The notes under the pieces: generated by a model | Seen by the model: only the letters and a program-made list of their open reading frames with translations | Told to the model about the DNA's origin: nothing | The model's database searches: none | Translations under genes and position numbers: made by a program | DNA from: Armatimonadota bacterium | GTDB taxonomy: Bacteria; Armatimonadota; Fimbriimonadia; Fimbriimonadales; Fimbriimonadaceae | Direction: 5' to 3' | Length of the DNA stretch: 63,513 nucleotides | Assembly: GCA_029781035.1 (NCBI GenBank) | Contig: JAKOXK010000015.1 | Location: 1 to 63,513 of the forward strand | Shown here: piece by piece, positions 57,666 through 63,513 of the stretch | Numbering within the stretch: position 1 is the first letter of the stretch | Layout: each line of letters opens with the position of its first letter

Positions 57666-57714
57666 CTTGGCTTGGTTTCTACCCGTCGGGCGGCCGTCGG
57701 CGCACAACGACCCC

Positions 57715-57970
57715 AGGGAGCAGCGCGCGTCCCCGCGCGCCCAAACGAACGGGCAACTGTTCACACCACTTACCGACCCGCCCCCAAGGAGCAGCGCGCG
57801 TCCCCGCGCGCCCAAACGAACGGGCTACTGTTCACACCACTTACCTACCGCCCGGACGCCCCAAGGGAGCAGCGCGCGTCCCCGCGCGCCCAAACGAACG
57901 GGCTACTGTTCATGCCACTTACCTACCGCCCGGACGCCCCAAGGGAGCAGCGCGCGTCCCCGCGCGCCGG
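57715..57970. repeat. array of four GC-rich hairpin repeats (REP-like)
   Basis: Units begin at about 57717, 57788, 57866 and 57944, spaced 71, 78 and 78 bases. Each has GGAGCAGC, a perfect seven-base stem (GCGCGCG/CGCGCGC) with TCCC loop, then CCCAAACGAACGGGC and a CTGTTC-CCACTTACC tail; the last is cut short. There is no gene here. The units agree through their whole length, unlike CRISPR. Confidence 0.8.
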
Positions 57971-58058: not shown

Positions 58059-58084
58059 GGCGCGCGGGGACGCGCGCTGCTCCC
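58059..58084 (-). repeat. inverted copy of the hairpin repeat at the mlaE stop codon
   Basis: The 26-base hairpin core in reverse orientation, its outer end touching the mlaE TAG. Reading in the mlaE direction, it lies right after the stop and could act as a terminator or mRNA-end hairpin. Confidence 0.7.
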
Positions 58085-58902
58085 TAGTGCCCCGCAAAAA
58101 GGAGCGCGGTGAGGAAGTAGTTGGCCACGTAGATGAGGACCATGCTGATGACCACCGTGTTCGTGGTAGCGCGGCCGACACCGACCGCGCCCTCCTTGGT
58201 CCGCAGGCCTTGTTGGCAGGCGACTACTGCAACGATGAGCCCGAAGGCTACCGTCTTCCACATGCCGTTGACGAAGTCACTGGGTTGGACGAACTGGCGG
58301 ATGGAGGACCAGAACGCTCCCTCTGGCACGCCGCCACGGTAGACCGAGACCACGAACCCGCCCAGCACACCACCGTACACGCCGACCATGGCCAGAACCG
58401 GCAGCATCGTGACGCAGGCGATGAGCCTAGGGATGACGAGGTAGTTGGTCGGGTGGACGTTGAGCGAGCGGAGGGCGTCCACCTGCTCGGTGACGGCCAT
58501 GGTGCCAATCTGCGCAGCCATCGCCGAACCCGCCCGCGCCGCGACCATGATTCCCGCCAGCACGGGCGCGATCTCGCGGGTGATGGCGAGGCCGACGGTC
58601 GCACCGGCCAGGCTCGTGGCGCCATAGCGGACGAGGAGCTCGGCGGAATACAGGCTGAGCACAGCCCCGCTGGCGAAGGTGGTGAGGGCGACGATGGGCA
58701 CGCTGGCCACACCGATGAAGGCCATCTGGTTGACGGTCTCGCCGACCTCGTGCGGCTTGCGGAAGATGCGGACGAGGGCGTCGACAAGGATCAGCACGCA
58801 CTCGCCGATAAAGGTGAGGCTCTCGCCGACGGCGCGCACGAGCAACCCGCCCGAGGGCCGCGCGCTCGGGGTCTTGGTGGCTGGTGCCGGCGTCGCCGCC
58901 AT
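58084..58902 (-). CDS. MlaE-family ABC lipid transport permease
   Basis: 272 residues from ATG 58902. MlaE/DUF140 fold: an interfacial N-terminal segment, then helices with ALTTFASGAVLSLYSAEL, ITREIAPVLAGIMVAARAGSAMAAQIGTM (the conserved coupling segment) and TEQVDALRSLNVHP. In diderms the family moves phospholipids between membranes with an MlaF ATPase and an MCE-domain protein, neither of which is adjacent. Promoter hexamer TATCCT is seven bases upstream. Confidence 0.9.
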   Translation of the reverse strand: MAATPAPATKTPSARPSGGLLVRAVGESLTFIGECVLILVDALVRIFRKPHEVGETVNQMAFIGVASVPIVALTTFASGAVLSLYSAELLVRYGATSLAGATVGLAITREIAPVLAGIMVAARAGSAMAAQIGTMAVTEQVDALRSLNVHPTNYLVIPRLIACVTMLPVLAMVGVYGGVLGGFVVSVYRGGVPEGAFWSSIRQFVQPSDFVNGMWKTVAFGLIVAVVACQQGLRTKEGAVGVGRATTNTVVISMVLIYVANYFLTALLFAGH

Positions 58903-58909
58903 AGGTGCG

Positions 58910-58915
58910 AGGATA
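58910..58915 (-). promoter_or_regulatory. -10 element of a leaderless promoter, mlaE
   Basis: TATCCT ends seven bases before the ATG at 58902. Confidence 0.45.
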
Positions 58916-58941
58916 CCGCCCACCGATCGTCCTGACCTGCA

Positions 58942-59877
58942 TTGACCACCCCTGTGTTGAACGGCGCCAACTCGGTGGCCTATACTCCTGGCATCTCGGA
59001 AAGGCGCGGCACCACCAGCACCTGGTCGCACGGCGGCATCAAGAACTACGACTACCAGAGCCGTGCCGACGGCTCGGTGGCGAGCGCCCGGCGCTACGAC
59101 GCTTTCGGCGACGGCAACACCCAGCTCAGCGGGCACCCCTGGATCGGGCCGTTCGGCTACGGCGGCCCGTTCGGCTACTACAGCACGGACTACGGCCCCC
59201 AGCCCATCGGGCTTGAGGCGGGCTACACCCCGACCGAGCCGATCAAGGAGGTCGGGCACCGGTGGTACGACCCGAGCATCGGAAGGTTCCTAAGTAGGGA
59301 TCCGGCGGAGAGCGGGAGGAATTGGTACGACTACTGCGACAATAGCCCTCTGGGCTATGCAGATCCAACGGGCCTGAATCTGACGGTTCTCGGGGGGAAT
59401 GCTGGAATTGAAGGCTGGGATTGGGTTGCTGAGCACGTCTTCGGTGTCGGAGGCAAAGTCATGCATAAGCCCACCAAAGCAGACCTCTTAGAGGCGATGA
59501 TAGAGGAGCCGGATGGCTCTGACGTGATGATTTGGGGCCATGGTGGCGAAGGCTACACATACGTTAATGACTCAGATACCATTCATGCTGAGGATCTAGC
59601 CTACGTCGCTGCCGAACGAAAGCGGCGAGGCAAGGGTAAGCTGGGTCACCTATGGATCAGATCCTGCAACACATGCCGTAGCGCTAAGTTCGTCAATGCC
59701 GCCGTCGATTGCGCCAAAGATGTCTTCGGTTTTACAACAATCACGACCGACGGGCCGATCCAGCATTGGAGTGCGCATGTTGATTCGGATCCACCGCCTC
59801 GCTATTGGTTCCCTTGGCACATTGGGAAAAAGGTCGATAAGAAGAAGAAAAAGAAGGCTAAACTCCCACATGGATAG
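58942..59877 (+). CDS. Rhs-core fragment with caspase-like C-terminal domain (cassette 1)
   Basis: 311 residues in frame from TTG 58942; no good start is visible, so this is probably an orphan Rhs tip. Residues 1-144 are the end of an Rhs/YD core: RRYDAFGD, GHRWYDPSIGRFLSRDP, DNSPLGYADPTGL. The remaining 165 residues, visibly poorer in GC, show SDVMIWGHGGEG (His200) and LWIRSCNTCRS (Cys242), the His/Cys layout of caspase-like peptidases (CHAT, C80, DUF4347). A Lys-rich tail ends it. Likely a toxin domain; the peptidase call is inference. Confidence 0.65.
   Translation: MTTPVLNGANSVAYTPGISERRGTTSTWSHGGIKNYDYQSRADGSVASARRYDAFGDGNTQLSGHPWIGPFGYGGPFGYYSTDYGPQPIGLEAGYTPTEPIKEVGHRWYDPSIGRFLSRDPAESGRNWYDYCDNSPLGYADPTGLNLTVLGGNAGIEGWDWVAEHVFGVGGKVMHKPTKADLLEAMIEEPDGSDVMIWGHGGEGYTYVNDSDTIHAEDLAYVAAERKRRGKGKLGHLWIRSCNTCRSAKFVNAAVDCAKDVFGFTTITTDGPIQHWSAHVDSDPPPRYWFPWHIGKKVDKKKKKKAKLPHG
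58957..59372 (+). repeat. Rhs-core direct repeat, copy 1
   Basis: About 415 bases nearly identical to 60454-60869 at a constant offset of 1,497 bases, diverging sharply after DPTG, where the variable C-termini begin. Confidence 0.85.
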
Positions 59878-60277
59878 TGAGAATCGCGCTGAATACGAGA
59901 GACAAGGTGTAAGGGGAAACTTTCTGCGGATGTCTTGTGCGGGAGGTGCAGTTCTCCTAGGGATTATTGCACTTGCTCTTGCATCGTGCATTGCCAAGTT
60001 CCGAGCGGCAAGCCAGCAGAGCATTTGGGCCACTGCAGTCGGCGCATTCGTAAATACGCAATACATGAAGACGGGGTCGGCAAGCGGTATCCTCGACGTT
60101 CCGACGTCGCTGGAGATGTGGCGCGGCATAGATCTATCACAGTACTACGTCGAGGAAGTCAACTATATGCCGCGCGGCCGCTACTATTGGTGCGTAATCG
60201 ATACGAAAGGCGCGAAATCGTTCGTGCTAGTGGATGCCAGCCTGTCGGTACGTGTGAAGGGCAAGTTGCGCCCGTAA
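59870..60277 (+). CDS. candidate immunity or accessory protein 1 (single-helix membrane protein)
   Basis: 135 residues. ATG 59870 overlaps the Rhs cassette-1 stop by eight bases. A charged cytoplasmic start, a membrane helix (about 22-42) and an extracytoplasmic domain of about 90 residues (IWATAVGAFV, EEVNYMPRGRYYWCVID). No family recognised. Position, coupling and low GC fit an immunity protein for the upstream toxin. Placement outside the inner membrane would suit a periplasmic toxin. Confidence 0.55.
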   Translation: MDSENRAEYERQGVRGNFLRMSCAGGAVLLGIIALALASCIAKFRAASQQSIWATAVGAFVNTQYMKTGSASGILDVPTSLEMWRGIDLSQYYVEEVNYMPRGRYYWCVIDTKGAKSFVLVDASLSVRVKGKLRP

Positions 60278-61344
60278 TGTTCGGGGTTGGCCAGCGTGGC
60301 CTGGCTGCAGGGATCATAGAGTCTTCAGAGTCGCCAATGGGTGCTGGGGGCCGTGGCCCAGCTTGGCAACGCGCCTTCCATCGTGTGCCGCCCGCCACAG
60401 TTCCGTTGCAAGCCGGCGGGCTGGGCGCGACCTCGCCGGTGGTGAGCGAGTGGCTGAACGGGGCTGAGTCGGTGGCCTATACTCCTGGCATCTCGGAAAG
60501 GCGCGGCACCACGAGCACCTGGTCGCACGGCGGGCTCAAGAACTTCGACTACCAGAGCCGGTCGGACGGCTCGGTCGCGAGCGCGCGGCGCTACGACGCC
60601 TTCGGCGACGGCAACACCCAATTCAGTGGCCACCCGTGGATCGGGCCGTTCGGCTACGGCGGCCCGTTCGGCTACTACGGCACGGACTACGGCCCCCAGC
60701 CCATCGGGCTTGAGGCGGGCTACACCCCGACCGAGCCGATCAAGGAGGTCGGCCACCGGTGGTACGACCCGAGCATCGGGCGGTTCCTGAGCCGGGATCC
60801 GGCGGAGAGCGGGAGGAACTGGTTCGCCTATTGTGACAACGATCCAATCAGTAATGTTGATCCCACCGGTTGCTACGATGAGAGGATCTACAGTAGACTG
60901 GCAAAATACTGGGGGAAGAAGATCGCCGACTGGTATAAGAAGGACAAAGCAAAAGCAAAGTCCGTCGACCTTAAAGTTGGCAAGCGCAAGAGACGTACCA
61001 AAACGGAGAAGAACCCTGACATATCAGACGAAGCCCTGGATGAAGTTCTGACCGAGGAATTTGGAAAATCTGAACGCGAGCCTGAGCGAGCGTCTACTGA
61101 GGACGATCCTCCGATCTTCGTAAGAAGACCAATTCGAGGAGAGCCAGAAGGTGGCTCTGTTGATCCGAGCCACGAGGGAGATGCCATGATAGCCACGCTA
61201 GCGGGTATTCTGGCTCCTCTGATTTTCGTTCTCCCAGAGTGGCTATTCGCGCCGGCCGCACGCGGCGGGCCAGTACTAGTGGGAAGCTCTGCTGCTGCGG
61301 CAGCGAAGGGAACCAACCGTCGATCTTCAAGAAAGCGAAAGTGA
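60277..61344 (+). CDS. Rhs-core fragment with unrecognised C-terminal domain (cassette 2)
   Basis: 355 residues; ATG 60277 shares a base with the preceding stop (TAATG). Residues 1-60 are GC-rich and may be more Rhs core or novel. Residues 61-198 repeat the core of cassette 1 (RRYDAFGD, HRWYDPSIGRFLSRDP, VDPTG). From 199 it changes to a low-GC, Lys/Glu-rich region (KKDKAKAKSV, KRKRRTKTEK) and a hydrophobic stretch (about 304-325) with an AAAAA-containing tail. No known toxin fold is seen. Confidence 0.6.
   Translation: MFGVGQRGLAAGIIESSESPMGAGGRGPAWQRAFHRVPPATVPLQAGGLGATSPVVSEWLNGAESVAYTPGISERRGTTSTWSHGGLKNFDYQSRSDGSVASARRYDAFGDGNTQFSGHPWIGPFGYGGPFGYYGTDYGPQPIGLEAGYTPTEPIKEVGHRWYDPSIGRFLSRDPAESGRNWFAYCDNDPISNVDPTGCYDERIYSRLAKYWGKKIADWYKKDKAKAKSVDLKVGKRKRRTKTEKNPDISDEALDEVLTEEFGKSEREPERASTEDDPPIFVRRPIRGEPEGGSVDPSHEGDAMIATLAGILAPLIFVLPEWLFAPAARGGPVLVGSSAAAAAKGTNRRSSRKRK
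60454..60869 (+). repeat. Rhs-core direct repeat, copy 2
   Basis: Partner of 58957-59372. Recombination between the two would delete immunity 1 and swap C-termini. Confidence 0.85.
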
Positions 61345-61922
61345 GGCGATGGAGTGTGCTAAAGGTATTTGCAGACACGAGTGTGCGAAGCATCGCCGAT
61401 AGATACGGATACTTTCCTGCGACATTCCGAGTCGTCCTCGCGTCGAGCCGTGGAATCGAGGGCATCTGGGCCAGAGTCACGTTTGCCTCGGCCGAGGGCT
61501 ACAGTTGCTCAGCACGCGCGAAGATAGGCAGCGTGCTTGTGGGTATTGAGGAAATCGGGTTCCTCGGAGAGCGCCTACTGAGAGCTCTGGAGGGGCTGGA
61601 TGAAGCGGATGGAACGGATACAAACGTGAGCGGCGTCCGTATGGCAGAACCCTATGTCCTTCGAGGAGGACAGACCCACTTGTTCGACCTGTACGTGCGT
61701 AAAGAAAGTAACCCGAGGGTTAGCCCTCGGATTATCCTAAGAATCATCATCTGTAGGAGGTTCCGCGCCTTACCAAGATCCGGAAAGAACATGTGGAACT
61801 CATTTTCGGATGAGATGTGGTGTTCGGCTGACGAATTACGGTCTTTCGCGCACGACCTATGCGAAGGAGCATCGAGGATTATCCGGGAACGTGAGGAGCG
61901 CGGTGGACACTGGCCACCGTAA
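61341..61922 (+). CDS. candidate immunity protein 2
   Basis: 193 residues from a GTG overlapping the cassette-2 stop (GTGA); GTG 61356 is an alternative. Predicted soluble, mixed alpha/beta, with SYRYG-like RSIADRYGYFPATFRVVLASSRG and a C-terminal helix (SADELRSFAHDLCEGASRI). No family recognised. Gene order and coupling suggest immunity to the cassette-2 C-terminus. GC is low, like the C-terminal region before it. Confidence 0.5.
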   Translation: MRRWSVLKVFADTSVRSIADRYGYFPATFRVVLASSRGIEGIWARVTFASAEGYSCSARAKIGSVLVGIEEIGFLGERLLRALEGLDEADGTDTNVSGVRMAEPYVLRGGQTHLFDLYVRKESNPRVSPRIILRIIICRRFRALPRSGKNMWNSFSDEMWCSADELRSFAHDLCEGASRIIREREERGGHWPP

Positions 61923-62055
61923 CGCACTGCCAATCATTATCGCCTTTGTTGTCGTCGTGCTTGGATTCGGCGTCTGGGTTTGCCTTCAATCCTTCTGTCG
62001 GACTCGAAGTTCCGTTCCGGAGTCCCTCAGGGAACATCGGTTTCCTTGGGGCTAG
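61903..62055 (+). CDS. small single-helix membrane protein
   Basis: 50 residues from GTG 61903 (AGGAG just upstream), overlapping the preceding gene by 20 bases. Helix at about 8-29 (LPIIIAFVVVVLGFG), then a short basic tail. Too small for family assignment; may be part of the immunity module or a remnant. Confidence 0.4.
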   Translation: MDTGHRNALPIIIAFVVVVLGFGVWVCLQSFCRTRSSVPESLREHRFPWG

Positions 62056-62344
62056 TTCTGTATTTAGACTGGAGGACTTCGGCTGCTTCCCTCATTGACT
62101 GGTCAAGTACGTGACCGTATAGATTTGAAGTGAGGGCGATCTGAGAGTGGCCGAGGTATCGGCTGACTTGGTGGAGGTTCAGGCCAGCCATGAGCATGAA
62201 GGTCGCGGCACTGTGCCGGAGGGAGTGCATGCCGGTCATCGGGGGCCGTGGCATGGTCTGGCAGCGGGAAGCTCCACCCCTCTCGAGCCTCTTACGAACC
62301 TCGCTGCAGACCATGTCTCCAACATGGATCGACGGGTGAGCAGA
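62027..62344 (-). pseudogene. tyrosine recombinase, C-terminal catalytic fragment
   Basis: In-frame from 62344, where an upstream TAG (62345-62347) cuts it off. HSLRHSAATFML, YLGHSQ and LYGHVLDQ supply the box II His-x-x-Arg, the His and the Tyr nucleophile region of phage-type integrases. The missing piece of the catalytic domain and the box I Arg are on a separate fragment beyond a palindromic insertion. Probably inactive. Confidence 0.8.
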
Positions 62345-62349
62345 CTAAG

Positions 62350-62640
62350 GCGCTCCCCCCGGGTCGGGTGGCACGATTATGCCGTTGGTCTGGCGATGGC
62401 AGGCCAGCACTGAAGGCAAGCATAGTCGTGCGCTCCCAGCGCCCTCAGAGGCGGGCACGGTCGACTTCGAACTGTCGACGGGCCAGCCCGCCGTTCGCTC
62501 GAGGGGGTGCTGCCTCGGGGCGGGCCTTGAGGGTGCAGGGCACACGACTATGACAGGGCTGCTCTTTCGTGAGCGTCACTCTGTAGCGGCCCGGCCCTTC
62601 CATAATCGTGCCACCCACGGGAGGATGGCCTCACGCTCCG
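62350..62640. repeat. nested inverted repeat splitting the recombinase gene
   Basis: Outer arms GGGTGGCACGATTATG (62366-62381) and CATAATCGTGCCACCC (62601-62616) are exact 16-base inverted copies. Inner arms CATAGTCGTG (62421-62430) and CACGACTATG (62543-62552) pair exactly and extend imperfectly inwards. The whole could fold into one long hairpin of about 250 bases. No transposase frame is seen. Resembles a non-autonomous (MITE-like) element. Confidence 0.65.
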
Positions 62641-62665
62641 ATTGAATTCAGTCACCCACCAAGGA

Positions 62666-62992
62666 TCATCGTGCGGCCACCCGTCCGCTCGCTTCACCTA
62701 TTCGGCACCCTGTGGCAAGCGTGAACTTGACCAGGTCCTCGATCCAGGAGCCTTGGAGGGCGGTCAGGAGCGCCTGGACCTGCTCCGCGTCGAAGTAGAC
62801 CTTCTTGTTCCGGGTGACCTTCGGGGCGAACATCTTGGTCACCGGGTTGCCGCCGCAAAGGCCCATCTTCATGGCCACGTTGAGCGCGGCCCTCAGAGTC
62901 CTTCTGGTGGCGTTGAGCGTGTTCTTGCTCGCTCCCTGCTCCTCGAGGATCCGCATCATCTGGGTTACGTCGGTCGCCCGAAGTCGACTCAC
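62666..62992 (-). pseudogene. tyrosine recombinase, N-terminal fragment
   Basis: 108 residues from GTG 62992. SAM-like core-binding domain (VTQMMRILEEQGASKNTLNATRRTLRAAL) followed by the start of the catalytic domain to box I TGCRIGEA (catalytic Arg), after which the frame diverges and stops. The N-terminal arm-binding domain is also missing: the fragment starts 33 bases from the asnS stop. Together with 62027-62344 it is one broken integrase. Confidence 0.78.
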
Positions 62993-63025
62993 CCAGGTTC
63001 CGCAGGAACAGCCCAGGCTCGCGCC

Positions 63026-63513
63026 CTAGAACTCGGCCTGGCCAGGCGCGCGGTGGAAGGGGATGACGTCGCGGATGTTCTTCATCCCCGTCACGTACAT
63101 GATCAGCCGCTCGAAGCCGAGCCCGAAGCCCGCGTGCGGCACAGATCCGAAGCGCCGCAGGTCGAGGTACCACCAGTACGCCGACTTGTCCAGACCTAGA
63201 GCGTCGATGCGGCCTTCGAGGGCGGCGAGGTCATCCTCCCTCTCGGAGCCGCCGATCAGTTCGCCGATGCGGGGAACCAGCACGTCCATGGCGCGCACCG
63301 TCTTCCCGTCCGCGTTCTGTTTCATATAAAACGCCTTGATCTCTTTCGGATAGTCCGTGAGGATGACGGGGCGGCCAACCTTCTTTTCAGTCAGCCAGCG
63401 TTCGTGCTCGCTCTGAAGGTCGCTGCCCCAGCCGACGGGGTACTCCCAACTCTCGCGGCTTTTCACCAAGAGGTCGACGGCTTCCGAATACGTCATCCGC
63501 TCAAAGCCTGAAT
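63026..63513 (-). CDS. asnS: asparaginyl-tRNA synthetase, C-terminal part
   Basis: The last 162 codons; the gene continues beyond the right edge. [38 protein letters not shown] and motif 3 [29 protein letters not shown], ending RAPGQAEF, identify class IIb AsnRS. It charges tRNA-Asn. The recombinase remnant begins immediately after its stop codon. Confidence 0.95.

Follow-up and report, generated by a model that had tools for sequence, protein, structure and literature searches.

Orphan toxin modules have been studied mainly in Enterobacteriaceae, in which rhs-CT/rhsI and cdiA-CT/cdiI modules (CT, C-terminal region) combine a core fragment of variable length with an unrelated C-terminus and an overlapping or directly following immunity gene, stand in tandem arrays, and have weak or missing translation starts (PMC3150448, PMC3967940, PMC2935791). 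Initiation signals are missing from most orphan modules, and Escherichia coli EC93 produces orphan immunity (PMC3150448). Recombination can arm an orphan tip (PMC3967940). Displacement of tips by homologous recombination in these bacteria gives a pattern of variable core length (PMC2935791), and recombination between tips stays within a core clade (Jackson et al., PMC2935791). In Salmonella, an orphan rhs toxin with internal promoters and low-level translation from a CTG codon forms a type II toxin-antitoxin system (PMC7043789). Here we analyse two Rhs tips, each followed by a small gene, in a 63,513-base stretch of DNA from a probably uncultured Armatimonadota bacterium (referred to as the window in the rest of the text), which is the entire contig C50 of a 98-contig, 3.42-Mb assembly that is 96% complete. 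The locus shares the gene layout, the tandem arrangement and the weak or missing translation starts of the enterobacterial modules and is an orphan rhs tip/immunity array, a kind already known, here separated from any Rhs gene and in a phylum that has received little study. It is unlike its enterobacterial counterparts in that a full-length Rhs is found neither upstream nor at any other place in the assembled genome, and in that it occupies an insertion of its own, beside an integrase remnant and with a repetitive extragenic palindrome (REP) between its modules. We consider it probable that the array is stranded, with silent toxins and immunity genes that are possibly expressed.

Each tip begins with a fragment of Rhs core. 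Core fragment 1, the extent of which was set with a full-length Rhs query, lies at 58936–59373 on the plus strand (TIGR03696, E = 3.2e-13) and core fragment 2 at 60415–60870 on the same strand (E = 8.8e-14). Both tips exceed the cut-off of this NCBIfam model (Rhs_assc_core), and the DPTG at the core end agrees with the DPxG motif. The two copies of about 415 bases described in the original prediction are real: they align over 417 bp (58957–59373 and 60454–60870) with 47 nucleotide and 13 amino acid differences (91% amino acid identity), and within them 58958–59257 and 60455–60754 form a direct repeat at 93% nucleotide identity, far beyond chance. Homology to full-length relatives begins slightly before the aligned repeat in both tips, at the first base of each fragment. 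Both tips align to a 1141-aa full-length reference Rhs only from residue ~1013, indicating that they are C-terminal fragments of Rhs, and neither carries a full YD-repeat shell with an N-terminal export or loading region. The C-termini proved unrelated and poor in GC, as predicted (0.53, compared to 0.66–0.67 for the cores and 0.55–0.56 for the small genes), and GC at third codon positions (GC3) falls from 0.87 in the cores to 0.52–0.57 in the C-termini. Both window cores also contain a 15-residue insert (around PQPIGLEAGYTPTEP) that is absent from five aligned full-length cores of relatives.

The C-terminus of tip 1 (CT1, 59374–59877, plus strand) has relatives on orphan tips at loci L170 (52%), L133 (37%) and L150 (29%). 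A further and more remote relative, carried by a full-length Rhs of genome G007, is weakly similar and shares the His and Cys residues and the partner architecture. GHG (H56 of CT1) and C98 are invariant across the family. An AlphaFold model built from four sequences (pLDDT 72.9) gave best Foldseek matches that all belong to clan CD (top E = 4.9e-4). The closest solved structures were a C11 protease, legumain, GPI transamidase, SAVED-CHAT and caspases, with VIA-align Z values of up to 8.5 for legumain and 8.3 for SAVED-CHAT, and profile searches against PDB sequences stayed below threshold, the best match for A1 being a CHAT protein. The clan CD matches, together with the invariant His and Cys, make a caspase-like cysteine peptidase the most likely prediction for CT1. 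Caspase-like toxins are already catalogued among polymorphic toxins (PMC3482391), and CT1 resembles the Tox-Caspase peptidases described there in carrying a caspase-like domain, with its His and Cys, at the C-terminus. Unlike them, it is unrecognised by Pfam, and its partner is a small protein anchored in the membrane that belongs to no listed family. This partner, imm1 (59870–60277, plus strand, 135 aa), has a single N-terminal membrane segment and starts at ATG 59870, so that its first 8 nt overlap the end of tip 1 (stop codon at 59875–59877). In five of five CT1-family tips the next gene encodes a small protein with an N-terminal membrane segment, these partners having diverged past BLASTP recognition where compared. 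Within CT1, an internal ATG at 59461 is preceded by a strong Shine-Dalgarno sequence (GGAGG; −9.5 kcal/mol, compared to a random 5% quantile of −7.1), from which a free 138-aa toxin domain could be made. Internally started expression in CT1 is possible on this analysis; the start is not conserved in L170, the closest relative.

The C-terminus of tip 2 (CT2, 60871–61344, plus strand) is a helical domain with an NPD(I/L) motif, one hydrophobic segment and a basic end. Its family comprises orphan tips at L118 and L123 and a full-length Rhs at L143, which share the motif, the hydrophobic segment and, mostly, the basic end. From its sequence, CT2 is possibly a membrane-acting toxin. A CT2 query across 250 genomes of the phylum gave no convincing match, and its relatives emerged only from tip-to-tip comparison. 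The next gene, imm2 (61341–61922, plus strand), overlaps CT2 by 4 nt at a GTGA (61341–61344) and encodes a soluble protein of 193 aa. The gene following CT2-family tips encodes a soluble protein in four of four cases (140–193 aa, the other three 140–172 aa), and the similarity of imm2 to these positional counterparts is not significant. An open reading frame (ORF) for a 50-aa membrane protein closes the array (61903–62055, plus strand); it has a strong Shine-Dalgarno sequence, and its GTG at 61903 overlaps the imm2 stop codon (61920–61922) by 20 nt. No Pfam family scored above cut-off for any of the five genes of the array, nor any NCBIfam family for imm1. Neither imm1 nor imm2 had convincing relatives in the 250 genomes or BLASTP support against its positional counterparts; position and repeated architecture make both likely cognate immunity genes. 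The locus offers two candidate toxin/immunity pairs: in one, a membrane-anchored partner goes with a caspase-like tip; in the other, a soluble partner goes with a tip that has a membrane segment.

Like cores with unrelated C-termini, a small gene directly downstream of each tip (overlapping by 8 and 4 nt) and C-termini that occur on full-length Rhs proteins elsewhere as well as on orphans (CT1 in G007, CT2 at L143) are the marks of an orphan rhs-CT/rhsI array. The typical placement downstream of a full-length rhs gene, which is not universally required, was seen neither in the window nor in the assembly. The window holds no full-length Rhs gene, as had been reported. The genome search that the original prediction had called for was run across the whole assembly with the 1141-residue full-length Rhs as query; all its matches were tips or fragments, gaps remaining in the assembly, and a first scan of the contigs with the window core alone as query gave no matches. 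Since recombination is limited to a core clade and the assembly holds no full-length Rhs of the same clade, the C50 tips lack a visible partner. The proposal that such arrays serve as a reservoir of tips and immunity genes for swapping is a reasonable reading of tandem tip/immunity modules, but no partner is visible here for the reservoir to serve.

Our survey covered 67 named loci and three of this genome (the window and two more), with 131 distinct core ends; most of the relatives matched by Rhs core came from records under the names Armatimonadetes, Fimbriimonadales/Fimbriimonadaceae or Chthonomonas. Among the core ends, 22 were full-length-like and 90 were orphans with upstream sequence enough to judge. 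Orphan core length ranged from 83 to 1499 nt with no preferred breakpoint, and about nine in ten orphans keep open frames. A small gene starts between −45 and +60 nt from the tip stop codon in 81 of the 90 orphans and 19 of the 22 full-length-like genes, and it overlaps the tip in 47 of those 81 (26 by 4 nt) and in 10 of those 19 (5 by 4 nt). Overlap is therefore an ordinary design of these junctions, common behind orphans and full-length genes alike, and does not carry the argument for expressed short forms that had been built on it. These counts extend orphan Rhs tip arrays to Armatimonadota, in which they are apparently abundant and under long-term core constraint.

All four overlapping junctions of the original prediction can be read in the sequence, but the meaning given to one of them did not hold. 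The ATG at 60277, within a TAATG (60275–60279), is in frame with core 2 and lies 138 nt upstream of the Rhs homology, and the frame between them runs through a REP palindrome (60346–60418, plus strand, 73 bp) with a 14-bp stem and a bulged G. GC at the three codon positions of this 138-nt leader is 0.74, 0.63 and 0.59, compared to a GC3 of 0.85–0.88 for the genes of this genome; the leader is not coding-like. Because the tip-2 frame crosses a mobile REP repeat, the TAATG is best read as a coincidence. The sole possible upstream start of tip 1 is a TTG at 58942. No Shine-Dalgarno sequence precedes either this TTG or ATG 60277 (duplex energies of +0.3 and −2.1 kcal/mol, respectively, against a random median of −3.0). 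Translational coupling from imm1 to core 2, as had been proposed from the immunity stop codon, is not supported, and an overlap at the start codon says little about coupled translation in a GC-rich array.

The array and a decayed integrase together form an insertion of about 4.1 kb (58903–63025, unstranded) between asnS, the stop codon of which lies at 63026–63028 on the minus strand, and an mlaE-like permease gene that starts at 58902, also on the minus strand. In locus L081 of G003, a genome of the same genus, the asnS stop (1462) and the start of the mlaE homologue (1465) are 2 nt apart; the window flanks align to L081 and nothing in between aligns, so that the site is empty in this one congener. 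A search for direct repeats at the insertion ends gave none of 9 nt or more: the end of asnS and the upstream flank of the array share no 9-mer or longer. Two pieces of a tyrosine recombinase lie on the minus strand, convergent with the array: a C-terminal piece (62030–62314; Pfam Phage_integrase, E = 2.6e-9), 45% identical to an intact integrase on contig C31, and a middle piece (62666–62992), 48% identical to residues 147–228 of the same protein. The N-terminus is missing, and an insertion separates the two pieces. Within the decayed integrase, at 62366–62616, lies an element of about 250 bp resembling a miniature inverted-repeat transposable element, with perfect 16-bp terminal inverted repeats (GGGTGGCACGATTATG).

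We propose that the two C-terminal tips, each accompanied by an immunity gene, derive by displacement from full-length Rhs genes and now sit within an integrase-associated insertion, the array having perhaps arrived together with the integrase. The toxins, without an export region, an Rhs shell or usable start signals, would probably be neither made nor delivered. The immunity genes have starts of their own, and may be made and protect the cell against the Rhs toxins of neighbours. Arming of a toxin would require its core to recombine with a full-length Rhs from the same lineage of cores. Several points weigh against this proposal. The polarity of the insertion is read from a single congener; the toxin domain might be made from ATG 59461; immunity function is backed by position and architecture rather than by sequence similarity or assay; and the arrays on contigs C31 and C97 are broken at contig ends, so that a full-length partner could hide in an assembly gap.

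The strongest competitor to a stranded array with working immunity genes is a relic, in which array and integrase would be decaying with no present function and the frames would still be open only through recent loss. The broken integrase, with its lost N-terminus and internal inserts, the REP inserted between the modules and the lack of a partner Rhs in the assembly all fit such decay, but we think it rather unlikely. All four main frames are intact, as are most orphan frames among relatives. Decayed, frameshifted cores, an outcome that the original prediction had itself raised, were not found: between the two open window cores, synonymous divergence is about 0.43 and non-synonymous divergence 0.05, for a dN/dS of 0.12, although the low ratio could predate displacement. 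Orphan-orphan and orphan-full core pairs within other loci likewise show non-synonymous divergence mostly around one tenth of synonymous. The window cores are under purifying selection and not drifting.

This selection, the overlapping genes, the strong internal Shine-Dalgarno sequence in CT1 and the Salmonella precedent (PMC7043789) could each be taken to mean that the tips are expressed in the cell as short forms, namely as toxin-antitoxin modules in which the overlaps couple toxin and antitoxin synthesis or, as in Salmonella, an internal start is used. Core constraint is no proof of short-form translation, as the divergence may predate displacement or may have been limited by gene conversion. 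The starts at 58942 and 60277 lack Shine-Dalgarno sequences, the tip-2 leader crosses the REP and looks non-coding, promoter-like sites occur at chance level in a promoter scan, the internal start is not kept in L170, and orphan start positions vary among relatives without pattern. The window pairs are like the Salmonella orphan in joining an orphan toxin to an immunity gene, internal expression being conceivable, and unlike it in that no evidence of a conserved internal promoter or start was found. We regard expression as short forms as unlikely, and the stranded array with silent toxins as the better account.

The palindrome between imm1 and core 2 belongs to a genus-restricted REP family. 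A 74-nt covariance model (R1) built from 12 copies, the window copy included (63.8 bits), shows covariation, 5 of 14 stem pairs being altered on both sides. R1 finds 17 copies in this genome and 26, 5 and 9 in three congeners, so that each of the four genomes of the genus carries the element; 17 genomes from outside the genus gave no match. The copies are scattered and of mixed orientation, some of them forming inverted pairs, and a gene for a REP-associated tyrosine transposase (RAYT) in the congener G002 (NF047646, 101.8 bits, cut-off 80) is flanked by REP copies. These are the traits of REP/RAYT systems (PMC3733652, PMC8266576): a bulged palindrome, dispersed copies, inverted pairs and a flanked RAYT gene; the copies here, of 73–76 bp, are longer than usual REPs, for which 20–40 bp is given. 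A second window copy, which was not used to build R1, overlaps the integrase remnant (62241–62317, plus strand, 50.0 bits). Of the 17 copies in this genome, seven are situated at arrays of Rhs tips; the family is listed for the window (both copies), L009 (1395, 2702, 4059 and 4226), L010 (7353–7426) and L222. The copies do not resemble attC cassette sites: no R boxes (GTTRRRY / RYYYAAC) were read in alignment A7, and orientation is mixed, unlike the uniform orientation of attC sites behind an integron integrase.

An integron-like arrangement, in which the integrase would move tip/immunity units flanked by palindromic recombination sites, is very improbable and already largely refuted: the tyrosine recombinase does stand convergent with two arrays of this genome (intact at C31:6177–7370 and decayed in the window), and the bulged-base palindrome does lie between successive tips in C31 and the window and after the C97 array, but this palindrome is a dispersed REP with its RAYT gene, the insertion ends share no 9-mer, orphan core lengths vary, and the integrase family was not found in the fetched stretches of the 66 remaining array loci, among them the C97 array of this genome. 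The integrase beside two arrays of one genome is a lead, not a demonstration, and the only unusual lead of this locus. Tip/immunity modules without an Rhs delivery gene might travel as small tyrosine-recombinase islands, with an intact integrase in C31 and a decayed one in C50, which we hold to be quite unlikely; if true, such islands would give recipients ready-made immunity and spare tips.

Two further arrays of this genome were read on C31. The one convergent with the intact integrase (L009, C31:1–6000) comprises four tips with mostly membrane-type C-termini, and the contig starts inside it. The other (L083 3382–7363, C31:33381–37362) belongs to a different Rhs core clade and has no integrase beside it in the stretches read (C31:33–37 kb); three of its tips share an N-terminal stretch (LSVVYTVVNGVVYSEDRGG), and one tip gave a sub-threshold phospholipase A2 match. 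Among the surveyed loci, the Rhs genes of L143 and L144 have cores of the Armatimonadota type, and the records that hold them are titled Methanoregulaceae archaeon (SJ84), which may point to a bin that is mixed or wrongly labelled. Downstream of mlaE in the window, tandem repeats of 71–78 nt with a AGGGAGCAGCGCGCGTCCCCGCGCGCC core and an inverted copy near them lie at 57707–57968 and 58059–58085.

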